In this document: positions 42,568 through 48,650 of the stretch, piece by piece
How the letters are laid out: the number at the start of each line of letters is the position of its first letter
Position numbering within the stretch: position 1 is the stretch's first letter
Assembly (NCBI GenBank): GCA_022763185.1
Contig: JALEGL010000003.1
Coordinates: 62,001-126,000 of the forward strand
Source: a bacterium
GTDB taxonomy: Bacteria; Bdellovibrionota_G; JALEGL01
Length of the DNA: 64,000 nucleotides
Direction: 5' to 3'
The notes under the pieces: model-generated
What the model was told of the DNA's origin: nothing
The model's input: the letters and a program-made list of their open reading frames with translations, nothing else
The model's database searches: none
Program-made: the position numbers and the translations under genes

Positions 42568-43688
42568 GTTGGATAAACAAACTTCAAAGTTTGTTATTGC
42601 TGGGCTGCATATTTTTTTTTCAACATCAGCTTTTTGCGCAAGAAAATAAAATTAAGCAAATTAAAGGCAAGATAAAACAAGAACAAAGAAAGTTAGCAGA
42701 AGTTAAGAGCAGAGAAAATTCTATTTTAAAACAGCTTAAACGATTTGATTTACGTTTAGAAGAATTGCAAGAAGAGCTTAGGCAGGGAAAAAAGAAACTT
42801 AAAAGTATCAATCAAAAAATTGCACATATTAAGAGCGATATTGTTAAAACAGAACAGAAAAAAAAAGCTTTAGATCAACAAGTTTCACAGCAACTCAAAG
42901 ATACGTATAAATATGGTAAGCCACAAGAGGTGCTAGATGTATTTAATTTTGAGGAAGTTCAATGGGCAAGGCGAAACGAAAGAGTTTATCAACTTTGGTT
43001 CAAACATCAATATGCCATTCTTTTGCAAAGTGAGAAGCTTTTAGCCCAATTGGAGCAACAACAAAACAAATTACAACTAGCCAAGGTTAAACAAGATAAA
43101 AACTTAAAAGAGTTAGCTGCAAATGAAAAAAAACTAAAGCAGCAAAGAATGGAAAAAGACACTTTGTTGAAACGTGTTTTATCACAAAAAGAATTTTATG
43201 AAAAAAACATTGCTGAATTAAAAGTTGCTGAAAAAAAAATGAATCGACTCATGCAGTCTTTGCGGTCAAAAAAAATACCAGACAGTCAGTTTGCCAAGCT
43301 TAAGGGCGACTTACCTTGGCCAACATCCGGTAAAGTGTTTCAAAAATATGGAGCCCACTACGATCAAACACTAAAGGTTAAGCTTTATAGAAAAGGTATA
43401 CGCATACGCGCAAAAAAAGATGCGGAAGTAAGGGCTATTCATGATGGAAGGGTGGTTTATGCAGGATGGTTTGATGGCTATGGAAGAGTTGTTATTTTAG
43501 ATCATGGAAGCGGATACTTTTCGTTGTATGCACATTTGGGTAAGGTGTTTAAAGATAAAAATCAAACGGTCATTGTTGGCGATATTATCGGTTATGTAGG
43601 TGATACGGGTACCGTTTATGGCAATCATTTGTATTTTGAATTAAGGCAAAAAGGCTTAACCATTGATCCACTAAGCTGGTTAGAATAA
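42564..43688 (+). CDS. EnvC-like murein hydrolase activator (coiled coil plus degenerate LytM domain)
   Basis: 374 aa: signal peptide ending LFAQ, a long coiled coil (about residues 28-245) and a C-terminal M23/LytM domain (about 255-374). In active LytM enzymes zinc and catalysis need an HxGxD and an HxH motif. Here the first reads RKGIRI and the last GNHLYFE, so the first His, the Asp and the second His of HxH are lost, while LYAHLG is kept. This loss matches activators such as EnvC that switch on amidases. Overlap with ftsX supports the FtsEX-EnvC arrangement. Confidence 0.9.
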   Translation: MSWINKLQSLLLLGCIFFFQHQLFAQENKIKQIKGKIKQEQRKLAEVKSRENSILKQLKRFDLRLEELQEELRQGKKKLKSINQKIAHIKSDIVKTEQKKKALDQQVSQQLKDTYKYGKPQEVLDVFNFEEVQWARRNERVYQLWFKHQYAILLQSEKLLAQLEQQQNKLQLAKVKQDKNLKELAANEKKLKQQRMEKDTLLKRVLSQKEFYEKNIAELKVAEKKMNRLMQSLRSKKIPDSQFAKLKGDLPWPTSGKVFQKYGAHYDQTLKVKLYRKGIRIRAKKDAEVRAIHDGRVVYAGWFDGYGRVVILDHGSGYFSLYAHLGKVFKDKNQTVIVGDIIGYVGDTGTVYGNHLYFELRQKGLTIDPLSWLE

Positions 43689-43758
43689 AGTCTATATGTC
43701 CCCAAGAAAAACAGAAAAATGTAGCATCACTGCAATGCAATATGGTAGGATGTCAATG

Positions 43759-44115
43759 ATGTTCACGCATGAAAAAAGATTGTCACGAAGGTTTCAAACT
43801 AAAATAGCCGTTTATGCAAAAGACACCAAGGGATTGAACTTTGGAGTCATCCGCGATTTATCCCGATCAGGTGCTTACATTGAAACCAATGATTTAAGAA
43901 ATGTGGGTATGGATTATAGTTTTATTTTATCCAATGGAGTCATTTCTTCTCCAGTGACAGCAAAAATTGTTAGGGTCAATAATGCTTTATTTGAAGGCGG
44001 ACAGTCTGGTTTAGCTGTAGATTTTTCTGAGAATTTGAGACCCATGGCCAAACGTTTGCGAGATGATCTTATTTTGTACTTGATGAATGAGAAATATCAA
44101 CGCATGTGGGCTTGA
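43759..44115 (+). CDS. PilZ domain protein
   Basis: Start placed at the ATG eight bases after AGGA, giving 118 aa; starts at 43696 and 43756 are also possible. A stand-alone PilZ domain with the c-di-GMP-binding pair RLSRRF (about residues 6-11) and DLSRSG (about 33-38, RDLSRSGAYIET), then the AVDF strand. Probably a cyclic di-GMP effector, with target unknown. It follows the envC-like gene closely, and may be cotranscribed. Confidence 0.85.
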   Translation: MFTHEKRLSRRFQTKIAVYAKDTKGLNFGVIRDLSRSGAYIETNDLRNVGMDYSFILSNGVISSPVTAKIVRVNNALFEGGQSGLAVDFSENLRPMAKRLRDDLILYLMNEKYQRMWA

Positions 44116-44298
44116 AGTATAGCACCAAAGCAATAAAACATATTATAAACATGGAGTTTCTTATGCTAGTCATGTGAGACAGCCATGTCGCGAATAGAGT
44201 CTTGAAAACTAATTCTATCTGTGGTATAAGTGCCTCACTATATTGGGAATAAATAAAAATAAATTTTTAACTACGATTTAATTGCAGGGGGAAGCGCA

Positions 44299-47193
44299 AT
44301 TTTTAGACTTGATCTAAAAAAGAATTTAGAGATACACCGTTCATTTTTTTTACTGGTTTTACTTGTTTTAAGTTTAGGTAATATTGGCCGAGCTAAGGCC
44401 AATGCAAATTCAAACTTAAGTTATGCAGAAGCACTTGTTAGGCGCGCACATGATCGCGCTATTCAAGTTAACAATGCAGGCATAAACATCAGATATGATC
44501 AACGTTTGAATCATATCTTAACTGAGTTGCGTTCTGTGAGAGCTTCTCTTAGTCACGGACAACAAAAACAGCTTCTGATGTATATGGCCGAAAAACATCG
44601 TCGTTTACATATACCCAGAAACACATTTAATTCCAGACAGTTTTTTCAGAGCCGCGCTTTCTATGGTTCAGCATTTGTTCTTGGTTTTTTCTCGATGGAG
44701 ATGATTCGATTTTTTAACAGCCCTTATACGCGTTTTGAAGATTGCATGCATTTGCTGGAGATTATGCCAGAGCTGACCAAACGTTATATTACCTTTAATA
44801 TAGGGTTTTACTCTTCTCAAGCCATATACAGTGTAATTGCACGATCTTTAACTCAAAAGCTTATCACTCAGAATAGTAGCTTGTTGTTTAATGCTTTGTC
44901 CAAACATGTTCAATTATCTGCAGCGGCTACAAAAATTTGGGGCAAGGCTTTTTTAAGAACCACGGTATCCTATGCCGTGGGTTTAATGCTTAACGCAATG
45001 CTTTACAATAGAGAGAATAGACAAAGTGACTACTGGCAACAAATGTTTGAGTACACGGGGAGTGTTTTGGTGGCCAATGCAGCCACAGCACCGTTTTTTC
45101 TAAAAGCAAGGCATTATGTCAAGGAAATGAAATATTTGCGTTATGTGAAACCCTTGGCAAGAACTGCTAAAGCCGGTTTTAATGCTGGAAAGCATATAGC
45201 CAAGACCAACTTTTTTACTCTTTTTGCTATTGGTATGGTTGAGGTTGTTTTGGTTTGGGATACGATTCCTGCATTTTTTCAAGACCTACGTAACGCTGGA
45301 AAAGTTGAAGGAGCATTAGGCTGGGAGATGGCTCGAGCCGATGCATTGCTTAAAAATCGTGAAAAAATGCCAAAGTTTCCAAGGAGAAATCAAGTTGTGT
45401 GTCAGCAAAGTTTATCGCAACTTCATTTTTATACTTGCGTACAGCAACGTCTTTTAGCCGATGTAAAACATTATTTATTGCGCAGAAGCCTACAGCAAGA
45501 GATTAAAGATTTAAAGCAGCTGCAATATATAGAAAGTGTCTACGACACCAATAATAATTATGCCGAATTTATTGGCAGAATGGGGGACGACTTTAAAGTG
45601 ATCAACCCGTTTAAAGTGGATCGCGGCTATATTCCTTGGGAGCACTACAAAAAAGATATGCATATTTTAATGGAGCGTTATCAAGAATATCATACGGAAT
45701 TTAGAAAAAAGTACCAGAATGAACTCAACACCTGGATGCAAGAAGTGAATGCTACGCTTAAAGAAGTGCACAGTATTAACATGAATATGATTAGCATGAT
45801 TTTTAATGCTGAGCATAGTGAACAAAATGTTGCTCAAGTTTTACAAAGCTATGAGCAGATGGCGCAAGATAAAAGTGATCTCATGTTTGATGAGGTCTAT
45901 AAAAAATCGTCTTATGGAAGGAACTTTTCTAATGATAGACCTAGAGATCATTCTCTTGGTGCTTTGTTGTCAGGTCGCTTTGGTGAAAAAAAACAAAACT
46001 ACCACAAAGATCGCACCTTAAGTGGAAAAGATTTTGTTGAAAGACTTTTAGAGGTGGCCAATAATAAACTGTGGCTTAGAGATTTAAATCGGATGCCCAA
46101 CTTAAAACCTGGCGAGCTGTTTAAAGCTTATGCTTATTTTTTATACGATCAAGAGCAGCAACTTAGAAAAAAATTAGAACAAAACCTACCCGATGATGAA
46201 TGTGAAAAACTACAGGCCATGCTGGCTCAACTATCTGCCATTAAAGTGGAGTTTGAAGTTTTACTTTCTGGTTGGTTTAATGAAATTGAGCTTCCAGATA
46301 ATAGAAGTTTTAAGCCTGCCAGCGTTCATTTGGGGCAGCCTGTTGCTGTTTATTCTGGAGGTGTTTTTAATGAAAGCGGTTATCCAGGCTTAGAGGCAAT
46401 GTTTGCCGATGTAAGAGGAGACAACTATGTTGGAGATATCTTCAGTGAAGCCGAGAGTTACTTTTCTGAACTATCTAAAAAAAGCTGGCCTGGTTTGTTT
46501 GAGTATGGCGTGGAAAGCTTAGAAGATTTGACGCACAAGTTTAGTACATTTAGTAATAACCTGTCGTCACGCTCTGTAACGTTACAGATGTATGGTGACA
46601 TAAGTGATGCTGCAAGAATACAAAAAGCTAGAGTGTTAAAGGCTTTGGCTGCTAGGTCGAGTAATGTATTGTTTGAAAAAGACTATGATTTAGACAAGCA
46701 AGAGGTATGGGATCAAGTGGGCTTGCATATTTGGGATTTGTTATGGATTAATCGGAACTCTTTGAATAAAAAGAATCATGCTTCTGTAACAGCTCAACAA
46801 GACAGTGTTTATCAAAAGATAACTACCTATGACAATGAAACTTCGCCTTGTAGAATGGTTTGGAGAGGTCAGTATGAAAAATACAAGCACTTTTTCTATG
46901 ATGAATTTAAAGAGGGGTTAACCTATCTTGGATTTCAGTGTACATGGAAGGGATGCCAGCAAGAAGAAATTTCTAATATAATCAATCCAGAAGAAAGTGT
47001 TGCTTGGAAAATATACGATAATTCAGCCATTAGCTTTCAACTGTTTAAAAAGCGTGCGGATCAAAGTTTGGGGATTAGCCCACAATATGATGCACAAGGT
47101 AATTTAGCTTTATCTAGCACTGCATTTCAATCGATGTTAGTGCGTTTTAAGGGTATGATGAATAATTTTGAGCAACGTTACTGCATGCAGTAA
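44299..47193 (+). CDS. Large secreted/membrane protein of unknown function with probable ATT start
   Basis: A frame open from an upstream TAA has no ATG, GTG or TTG until 44506. Starting there loses a perfect signal peptide. The ATT at 44299 is six bases after AGGGGGA and gives FRLDLKKNLEIHR, then FFLLVLLVLSLG and cleavage near RAKA (964 aa). ATT is a rare but real start (infC, pcnB in E. coli). The body has probable helices at about 117-135, 216-232, 250-268 and 303-325, followed by a long soluble region rich in charged residues. No known domain was recognised. It may sit in the envelope. Confidence 0.7.
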   Translation: MFRLDLKKNLEIHRSFFLLVLLVLSLGNIGRAKANANSNLSYAEALVRRAHDRAIQVNNAGINIRYDQRLNHILTELRSVRASLSHGQQKQLLMYMAEKHRRLHIPRNTFNSRQFFQSRAFYGSAFVLGFFSMEMIRFFNSPYTRFEDCMHLLEIMPELTKRYITFNIGFYSSQAIYSVIARSLTQKLITQNSSLLFNALSKHVQLSAAATKIWGKAFLRTTVSYAVGLMLNAMLYNRENRQSDYWQQMFEYTGSVLVANAATAPFFLKARHYVKEMKYLRYVKPLARTAKAGFNAGKHIAKTNFFTLFAIGMVEVVLVWDTIPAFFQDLRNAGKVEGALGWEMARADALLKNREKMPKFPRRNQVVCQQSLSQLHFYTCVQQRLLADVKHYLLRRSLQQEIKDLKQLQYIESVYDTNNNYAEFIGRMGDDFKVINPFKVDRGYIPWEHYKKDMHILMERYQEYHTEFRKKYQNELNTWMQEVNATLKEVHSINMNMISMIFNAEHSEQNVAQVLQSYEQMAQDKSDLMFDEVYKKSSYGRNFSNDRPRDHSLGALLSGRFGEKKQNYHKDRTLSGKDFVERLLEVANNKLWLRDLNRMPNLKPGELFKAYAYFLYDQEQQLRKKLEQNLPDDECEKLQAMLAQLSAIKVEFEVLLSGWFNEIELPDNRSFKPASVHLGQPVAVYSGGVFNESGYPGLEAMFADVRGDNYVGDIFSEAESYFSELSKKSWPGLFEYGVESLEDLTHKFSTFSNNLSSRSVTLQMYGDISDAARIQKARVLKALAARSSNVLFEKDYDLDKQEVWDQVGLHIWDLLWINRNSLNKKNHASVTAQQDSVYQKITTYDNETSPCRMVWRGQYEKYKHFFYDEFKEGLTYLGFQCTWKGCQQEEISNIINPEESVAWKIYDNSAISFQLFKKRADQSLGISPQYDAQGNLALSSTAFQSMLVRFKGMMNNFEQRYCMQ

Positions 47194-47267
47194 AAATAGA
47201 AGTGTATGCGACATCAACTCCCCACTTTTTTATTTCTTCTTTTTAAAAAATGTGTAAACTAAAGACT

Positions 47268-48650
47268 ATGGCCAATGACACAAAAATAATTCGTTCTGGT
47301 GAGCAACCCACTATGCTCATGATACCCAAATGTAAAATAGTTGTAACCGATAAAAATGAAAAAACATCAACCCATGAAATTGATAAAGGTAGGATCGTAA
47401 TTGGAGGCTCTGAAAGCTGCGACCTACAAATTAAAGATGATACGGTTTCCAGGCAGCATGCTGAAATTATCAAAATGAAAGAAGGTTACCTTATCCGTGA
47501 CCTTGATTCTACCAATGGTACTTATGTGGGAGGACTCAAGGTTAAAGAGGCTTATTTATCACCGCAATCAATTATAAAGATTGGTAAAAGCAGTATTCAG
47601 TTTACCCCTTTGGATGAAGAGCTGGAAATTTATCCGTCCAAAAACGATCATTATGCCGGTCTCATTGGTAAATCTTTGCAAATGCGCAAGATTTTTGGGG
47701 TTTTGGACAAAGTATCTCCAACCAATGTCTCTGTGGTGATTACCGGTGAAACGGGTACTGGGAAAGAATTGGTGGCCAAAGCCATTCACGACACCTCTAA
47801 GCGCAATAAATCACCTTTCATTGTTTTTGATTGCGGGGCTGTTGCAGAAAACTTGATAGAGTCTGAGCTGTTTGGTCATGAAAAAGGATCATTTACCGGG
47901 GCTACGGCCACGCGACAAGGGGCATTTGAGTTGGCAGATGGCGGAACCCTATTTTTGGATGAGTTGGGTGAGCTGTCGGTTGATTTGCAACCTAAGTTGT
48001 TAAGAGCCCTTGAGAGCGGAGATATTAAAAGAGTAGGGGCGGACAGAAGTAAAAAAGTCAATGTCAGGGTGGTGGCAGCCACCAACCGCAATTTGAAAGA
48101 AGAGGTTAAGAAAGGCAATTTTAGAGAAGACTTGTATTTTCGTTTATCCGTGGTGGAAGTGCACTTGCCGCCATTGCGTAAGCGTAAAGATGACATTAAA
48201 CTCTTGATTGATCATTTTTTTGAGTTGGCCAAAGCCGATAATCCAGATAAAAAAGTGATTTCCATTGGCCATGATGCCAAACAATTGTTGGAGGGCTATG
48301 CCTGGCCAGGCAATATCAGGGAGCTAAAAAACGCCATTGATAGAGCTTACAGCTTCTGTGACGGGCATGAGGTCATGGTTGAGCATTTACCGGATTATAT
48401 AAGCGGTGGTGGAGCCGCCAGTGCTGACACCAGTACAGGTTTTGCTTTGGGTGGTAGTGGAGTTGATACGGATTTGCCTTTTAAAGAAGCCAAGGAGCGT
48501 TGGGTGGAATCTTTTGAAAAAGACTATCTCATTGATTTACTTAAAAAGAATGATCTTAATATTTCTAAAGCCGCCAAACAAGCCGGGATTGATCGAAAAT
48601 CCGTGCAGCGCTTGCTTAAAAAGTATGATCTGAACGTTAAAGATTTATGA
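47268..48650 (+). CDS. FHA-domain sigma-54-dependent transcriptional activator
   Basis: 460 aa: an FHA domain (about 40-115, SRQHAEI and STNGTYV), an AAA+ sigma-54 activator core with Walker A GETGTGKE (160-167), the sigma-54-contact loop GSFTGA (207-212, where most have GAFTGA) and Walker B GGTLFLDELGEL (from 225), then a Fis-type HTH at the C-terminus (NISKAAKQAGIDRKSVQRLLKK). FHA domains bind phosphothreonine, so a Ser/Thr kinase may control it. An ATG 18 bases earlier is an alternative start. It overlaps the next gene by ATGA. Confidence 0.92.
   Translation: MANDTKIIRSGEQPTMLMIPKCKIVVTDKNEKTSTHEIDKGRIVIGGSESCDLQIKDDTVSRQHAEIIKMKEGYLIRDLDSTNGTYVGGLKVKEAYLSPQSIIKIGKSSIQFTPLDEELEIYPSKNDHYAGLIGKSLQMRKIFGVLDKVSPTNVSVVITGETGTGKELVAKAIHDTSKRNKSPFIVFDCGAVAENLIESELFGHEKGSFTGATATRQGAFELADGGTLFLDELGELSVDLQPKLLRALESGDIKRVGADRSKKVNVRVVAATNRNLKEEVKKGNFREDLYFRLSVVEVHLPPLRKRKDDIKLLIDHFFELAKADNPDKKVISIGHDAKQLLEGYAWPGNIRELKNAIDRAYSFCDGHEVMVEHLPDYISGGGAASADTSTGFALGGSGVDTDLPFKEAKERWVESFEKDYLIDLLKKNDLNISKAAKQAGIDRKSVQRLLKKYDLNVKDL

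Follow-up and report, generated by a model that had tools for sequence, protein, structure and literature searches.

The window, that is, the whole stretch of 64,000 nucleotides that was analysed, contains a long orphan gene located between a PilZ-domain gene and a gene encoding an FHA plus sigma-54 activator protein (Table 1). The reading frame of the orphan gene is bounded by an in-frame TAA at 44260-44262 and by the TAA at 47191-47193, and a base-by-base check confirmed that it is open throughout. The sequence-only reading had stated that ATG, GTG and TTG are absent from the upstream stop to residue 70 and that an ATT at 44299 lies six bases after AGGGGGA. Both statements were confirmed: TTG 44506 (residue 70 if ATT 44299 is taken as residue 1) is the first canonical start codon in frame, and the spacer occupies positions 44293-44298. 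With ATT 44299 as start the product would have 964 amino acids and the N-terminus MFRLDLKKNLEIHRS FFLLVLLVLSLGNIG RAKA NA, the residues from the ATT being (M)FRLDLKKNLEIHRSFFLLVLLVLSLGNIGRAKANANS.

Table 1. Coordinates and features of the orphan gene, its candidate start codons and its neighbours (positions of the window).
Feature	Position	Strand	Basis and remarks
PilZ-domain gene, upstream	43696..44115	+	Pfam PilZ
TTG in frame 2	44282..44284	+	Joins the gene only with one base missing (G5 or T5 run); pairing -2.9 kcal/mol
Shine-Dalgarno AGGGGGA	44286..44292	+	Six pairs with the 16S tail, one of them G-U; -9.4 kcal/mol
Orphan gene	44299..47193	+	964 aa plus stop; translation; without family match
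Probable ATT start codon	44299..44301	+	Sole near-cognate codon in frame with a strong Shine-Dalgarno at proper spacing
Predicted Sec signal peptide	44299..44400	+	Translation, rule-based score; cleavage after AKA (residue 34) or ANA (residue 36)
ATA, alternative near-cognate start	44332..44334	+	23-residue signal peptide; Shine-Dalgarno only -1.5 kcal/mol
TTG, first canonical in-frame start	44506..44508	+	Rejected as main start: weak Shine-Dalgarno, no signal peptide, upstream coding score
FHA plus sigma-54 activator gene, downstream	47250..48650	+	Pfam; probable start ATG 47268

In base composition (GC3 0.34) and codon score the gene does not stand out from the rest of the genome. Whole-protein searches yielded no homologue in five genomes of the phylum, 385 relatives, GTDB contigs, viral contigs, phages or plasmids; a single weak match in genome G111 (17 bits, 29% over 102 aa) was dismissed as fortuitous. 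When 295 residues from the N-terminal portion were used to look for paralogues in the same genome, only the self-match was returned, and nothing above chance was detected for the 964-aa protein in Pfam, NCBIfam, PHROGs or the PDB sequences. Judged by these comparisons, the protein is an orphan in the collections searched. Hydrophobic stretches are located near residues 121-139, 217-235 and 305-323, and beyond them extends a long region, mainly helical according to a low-confidence model. The single-sequence AlphaFold2 model (pLDDT 39) was too poor to interpret and was not used for a fold search.

Whether so long a stretch devoid of canonical starts exceeds chance was judged against 624 long frames, taken from the 64 kb window and about 725 kb of other N-free stretches, which together cover about a third (~35%) of the 2.25-Mb genome. 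Between the upstream stop and the first canonical start lay 4.5 codons at the median and 31 at the 99th percentile; in the orphan gene this distance is 81 codons, the maximum of the sample, and this gene is the only one of the 624 with at least 69 codons before a canonical start. Given the codon usage of the genome, a run of 69 codons without ATG, GTG or TTG inside a gene has a probability of about 0.01. The absence of a canonical start over this length exceeds chance. Gaps of at least 40 codons occur in two further frames, whose upstream stretches score as non-coding (-0.27 and -0.33 per codon), versus +0.09 per codon for the stretch before TTG 44506. In windows of 20 codons, the scores were +3.4 (44359-44418) and +2.8 (44419-44478), the reference values being +2.6 (gene mean), -4.6 (wrong-frame mean) and 0.2 (wrong-frame 95th percentile). 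Positions 44359-44478 thus score like genes, and therefore coding begins well upstream of TTG 44506. The first 20 codons after the ATT (44299-44358) scored weakly (-1.5), which was counted against this start. As expected of an AUU-started gene, no usable canonical start precedes the coding region. The third of the genome that was scanned yielded no second ATT start, a further point counted against ATT 44299.

The 16S 3' end of the same genome carries the canonical anti-Shine-Dalgarno CCTCC. At ATT 44299 the duplex energy is -9.4 kcal/mol at a spacing of 6-7 nt; about 5% of the chosen gene starts pair this strongly, compared with 1.1% of internal near-cognate codons. The strong and properly spaced Shine-Dalgarno sequence looked for in AUU-started genes is present. 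The claim that the ATT start restores a signal peptide was borne out by a rule-based prediction. The predicted layout is KKNLEIHRS-FFLLVLLVLSLGNIG-RAKA-NA, with the positive n-region, hydrophobic h-region and A-x-A cleavage site of Sec substrates. Among gene starts 10.5% passed this test, compared with 1.0% of internal near-cognate codons, and in its strict A-x-A version the figures were 3.3% and 0.06%, respectively; a signal peptide combined with a Shine-Dalgarno as strong as that of ATT 44299 was found at none of 4762 internal near-cognate codons. The n-region from the ATT is long (15 residues), which was also counted against this start.

It is nearly certain that translation begins before TTG 44506, and by Shine-Dalgarno pairing, signal peptide and coding score ATT 44299 is the best-placed candidate initiator. 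These parts of the earlier interpretation were retained. Taken together, the evidence for a start at the 44299 location is strong, whereas the exact triplet is indicated by the Shine-Dalgarno spacing only. On this sequence evidence, ATT 44299 is probably the start of the orphan gene.

Among the other explanations considered, the one with most weight, although unlikely, is that ATG is the true or ancestral codon at 44299 and that ATT arose through misassembly or by recent mutation in the lineage. Everything except the third base is as in a normal start (Shine-Dalgarno, spacing and signal peptide), and the genome is a draft of 15 contigs represented once only. On the other hand, within the third of the genome that was scanned the starts of all other long frames look intact, and errors are therefore infrequent overall in that part. 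In the few genomes closely studied, about one AUU start is known in each besides infC. Because of this frequency, and because the sampled assembly has no other broken start, a true AUU is considered several times likelier than an ATG altered by error or mutation, as a rough judgement and not a computed value. Initiation at another near-cognate codon, chiefly ATA 44332, would give MHRSFFLLVLLVLSLGNIGRAKA, a signal peptide of more typical length, and this was counted against ATT 44299; however, the pairing upstream of the ATA amounts to -1.5 kcal/mol versus -9.4 kcal/mol at the ATT, and the strong Shine-Dalgarno would be left unused, which makes this reading quite improbable.

The least probable explanations, both very improbable, involve the two TTG codons. 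If one base were missing from the G5 (44287-44291) or the T5 (44300-44304) run, or if ribosome or polymerase slippage occurred there, translation could begin at TTG 44282, the only upstream start in another frame that can be joined by a single indel. Homopolymer runs are error-prone and frame 2 is open across both of them to the TAA at 44315, but the pairing upstream of this codon is weak (-2.9 kcal/mol), the well-placed Shine-Dalgarno at 44286 would fall inside the gene and the 623 other frames show no similar break at the start. TTG 44506, in turn, has in its favour being the first canonical start codon in frame, with the open frame upstream then due to chance; against it, the coding score extends upstream, its Shine-Dalgarno energy is -2.2 kcal/mol in the standard window (-6.4 kcal/mol with a longer pairing stretch allowed) and the signal peptide would be lost in the rule-based test.

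With initiation at ATT 44299, the strong AGGGGGA would position the 30S subunit so that the fMet-tRNA could be accepted on the AUU despite the third-base mismatch. The product, with its predicted N-terminal Sec signal peptide, would be exported and cleaved near AKA or ANA (residues 32-36). Initiation would be expected to be IF3-sensitive and to keep the yield constantly low, at roughly one tenth of that from ATG.

The proposed link to translational control of the infC type was not upheld. The infC gene of the same genome is located on another contig and has a GTG start; in two relatives (G004 and G001) the infC start is apparently TTG, and not ATT, ATA or ATC. The leader of the orphan gene showed no structure better than that of shuffled sequences (z-scores 0.19, -0.27 and 0.47), and a search against Rfam returned only sub-threshold chance matches. 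A hairpin with a perfect 6-bp stem, AATTGC-AGGGGGAAGC-GCAATT (44276-44310), with the Shine-Dalgarno in the loop and the ATT in the 3' arm, was discarded since shuffled sequences fold as well. No Pfam or NCBIfam match indicated a protein that is IF3 or acts on translation.

In two relatives, G001 and G003, the FHA-sigma-54 gene directly follows the PilZ gene, with gaps of about 150 and 240 bases, and the orphan gene is absent, which implies either a gain in the present genome or a loss in the relatives. No direct repeats of 9-12 bases were found to flank the orphan gene. The motif ATGCGACATNAANTCC is common to the window (47205-47225) and G003, just upstream of the FHA-sigma-54 gene; it is possibly a conserved promoter or operator, and its sharing would fit an insertion upstream of the sigma-54 gene's own promoter. 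A ctpA-like protease gene lies directly 5' of the PilZ gene in both relatives and is missing in the window from the interval (43688-43696) that separates the PilZ gene from the EnvC-like (M23 peptidase) gene. The host is an uncultured, deltaproteobacteria-like bacterium; the closest named organisms for the FHA-sigma-54 neighbour are Myxococcales and Deltaproteobacteria MAGs (about 50% identity). With about 48% identity to the FHA-sigma-54 gene of the window, a gene on the GTDB contig CAMAWH010000031.1 is similar to the deltaproteobacterial matches; the title of this record, Klebsiella pneumoniae, is probably wrong.

Starts of this kind have been described previously. In Staphylococcus aureus, the AUU of cvfC1 (61 aa), with an extended Shine-Dalgarno, yields about 10% of AUG, and both elements are conserved among staphylococci and were mapped by ribosome profiling (PMC13009471). 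The orphan gene resembles it in an AUU offset by a strong Shine-Dalgarno at proper spacing, whereas its start is predicted from the sequence. PncA/BBE22 of Borrelia burgdorferi also has an AUU start, and the restored part holds a catalytic residue, as confirmed by the crystal structure (PMC13398362); in both cases an AUU overlooked by automatic annotation restores a needed N-terminus, which in the orphan protein contains a predicted signal peptide instead of a catalytic residue. Escherichia coli infC and pcnB share the AUU start codon (PMC1780047), but infC is subject to an IF3 feedback loop and the orphan gene has no known link to translation. Streptomyces sigR, a regulator, has a GTC start that is IF3-repressed, as proven by mutation (PMC5472188); it is comparable in that a non-canonical start, here ATT, is expected to restrain expression. 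By analogy with cvfC1, PncA, infC and pcnB, the yield would be low and IF3-sensitive, with the strong Shine-Dalgarno compensating the weak codon.

AUU starts with strong Shine-Dalgarno sequences are already documented, and the orphan gene probably adds one of that type; its ATT start does not open a new mechanism. It is conceivable, but rather doubtful, that the AUU is a selected expression throttle on a lineage-specific exported envelope protein of 964 aa, encoded between PilZ and FHA-sigma-54 and absent in the two relatives. If the assignment of the start is right, the gene would join the few bacterial genes known to start with AUU, and gene callers limited to ATG, GTG and TTG would trim such signal peptides and thus misplace exported proteins in the cytoplasm.
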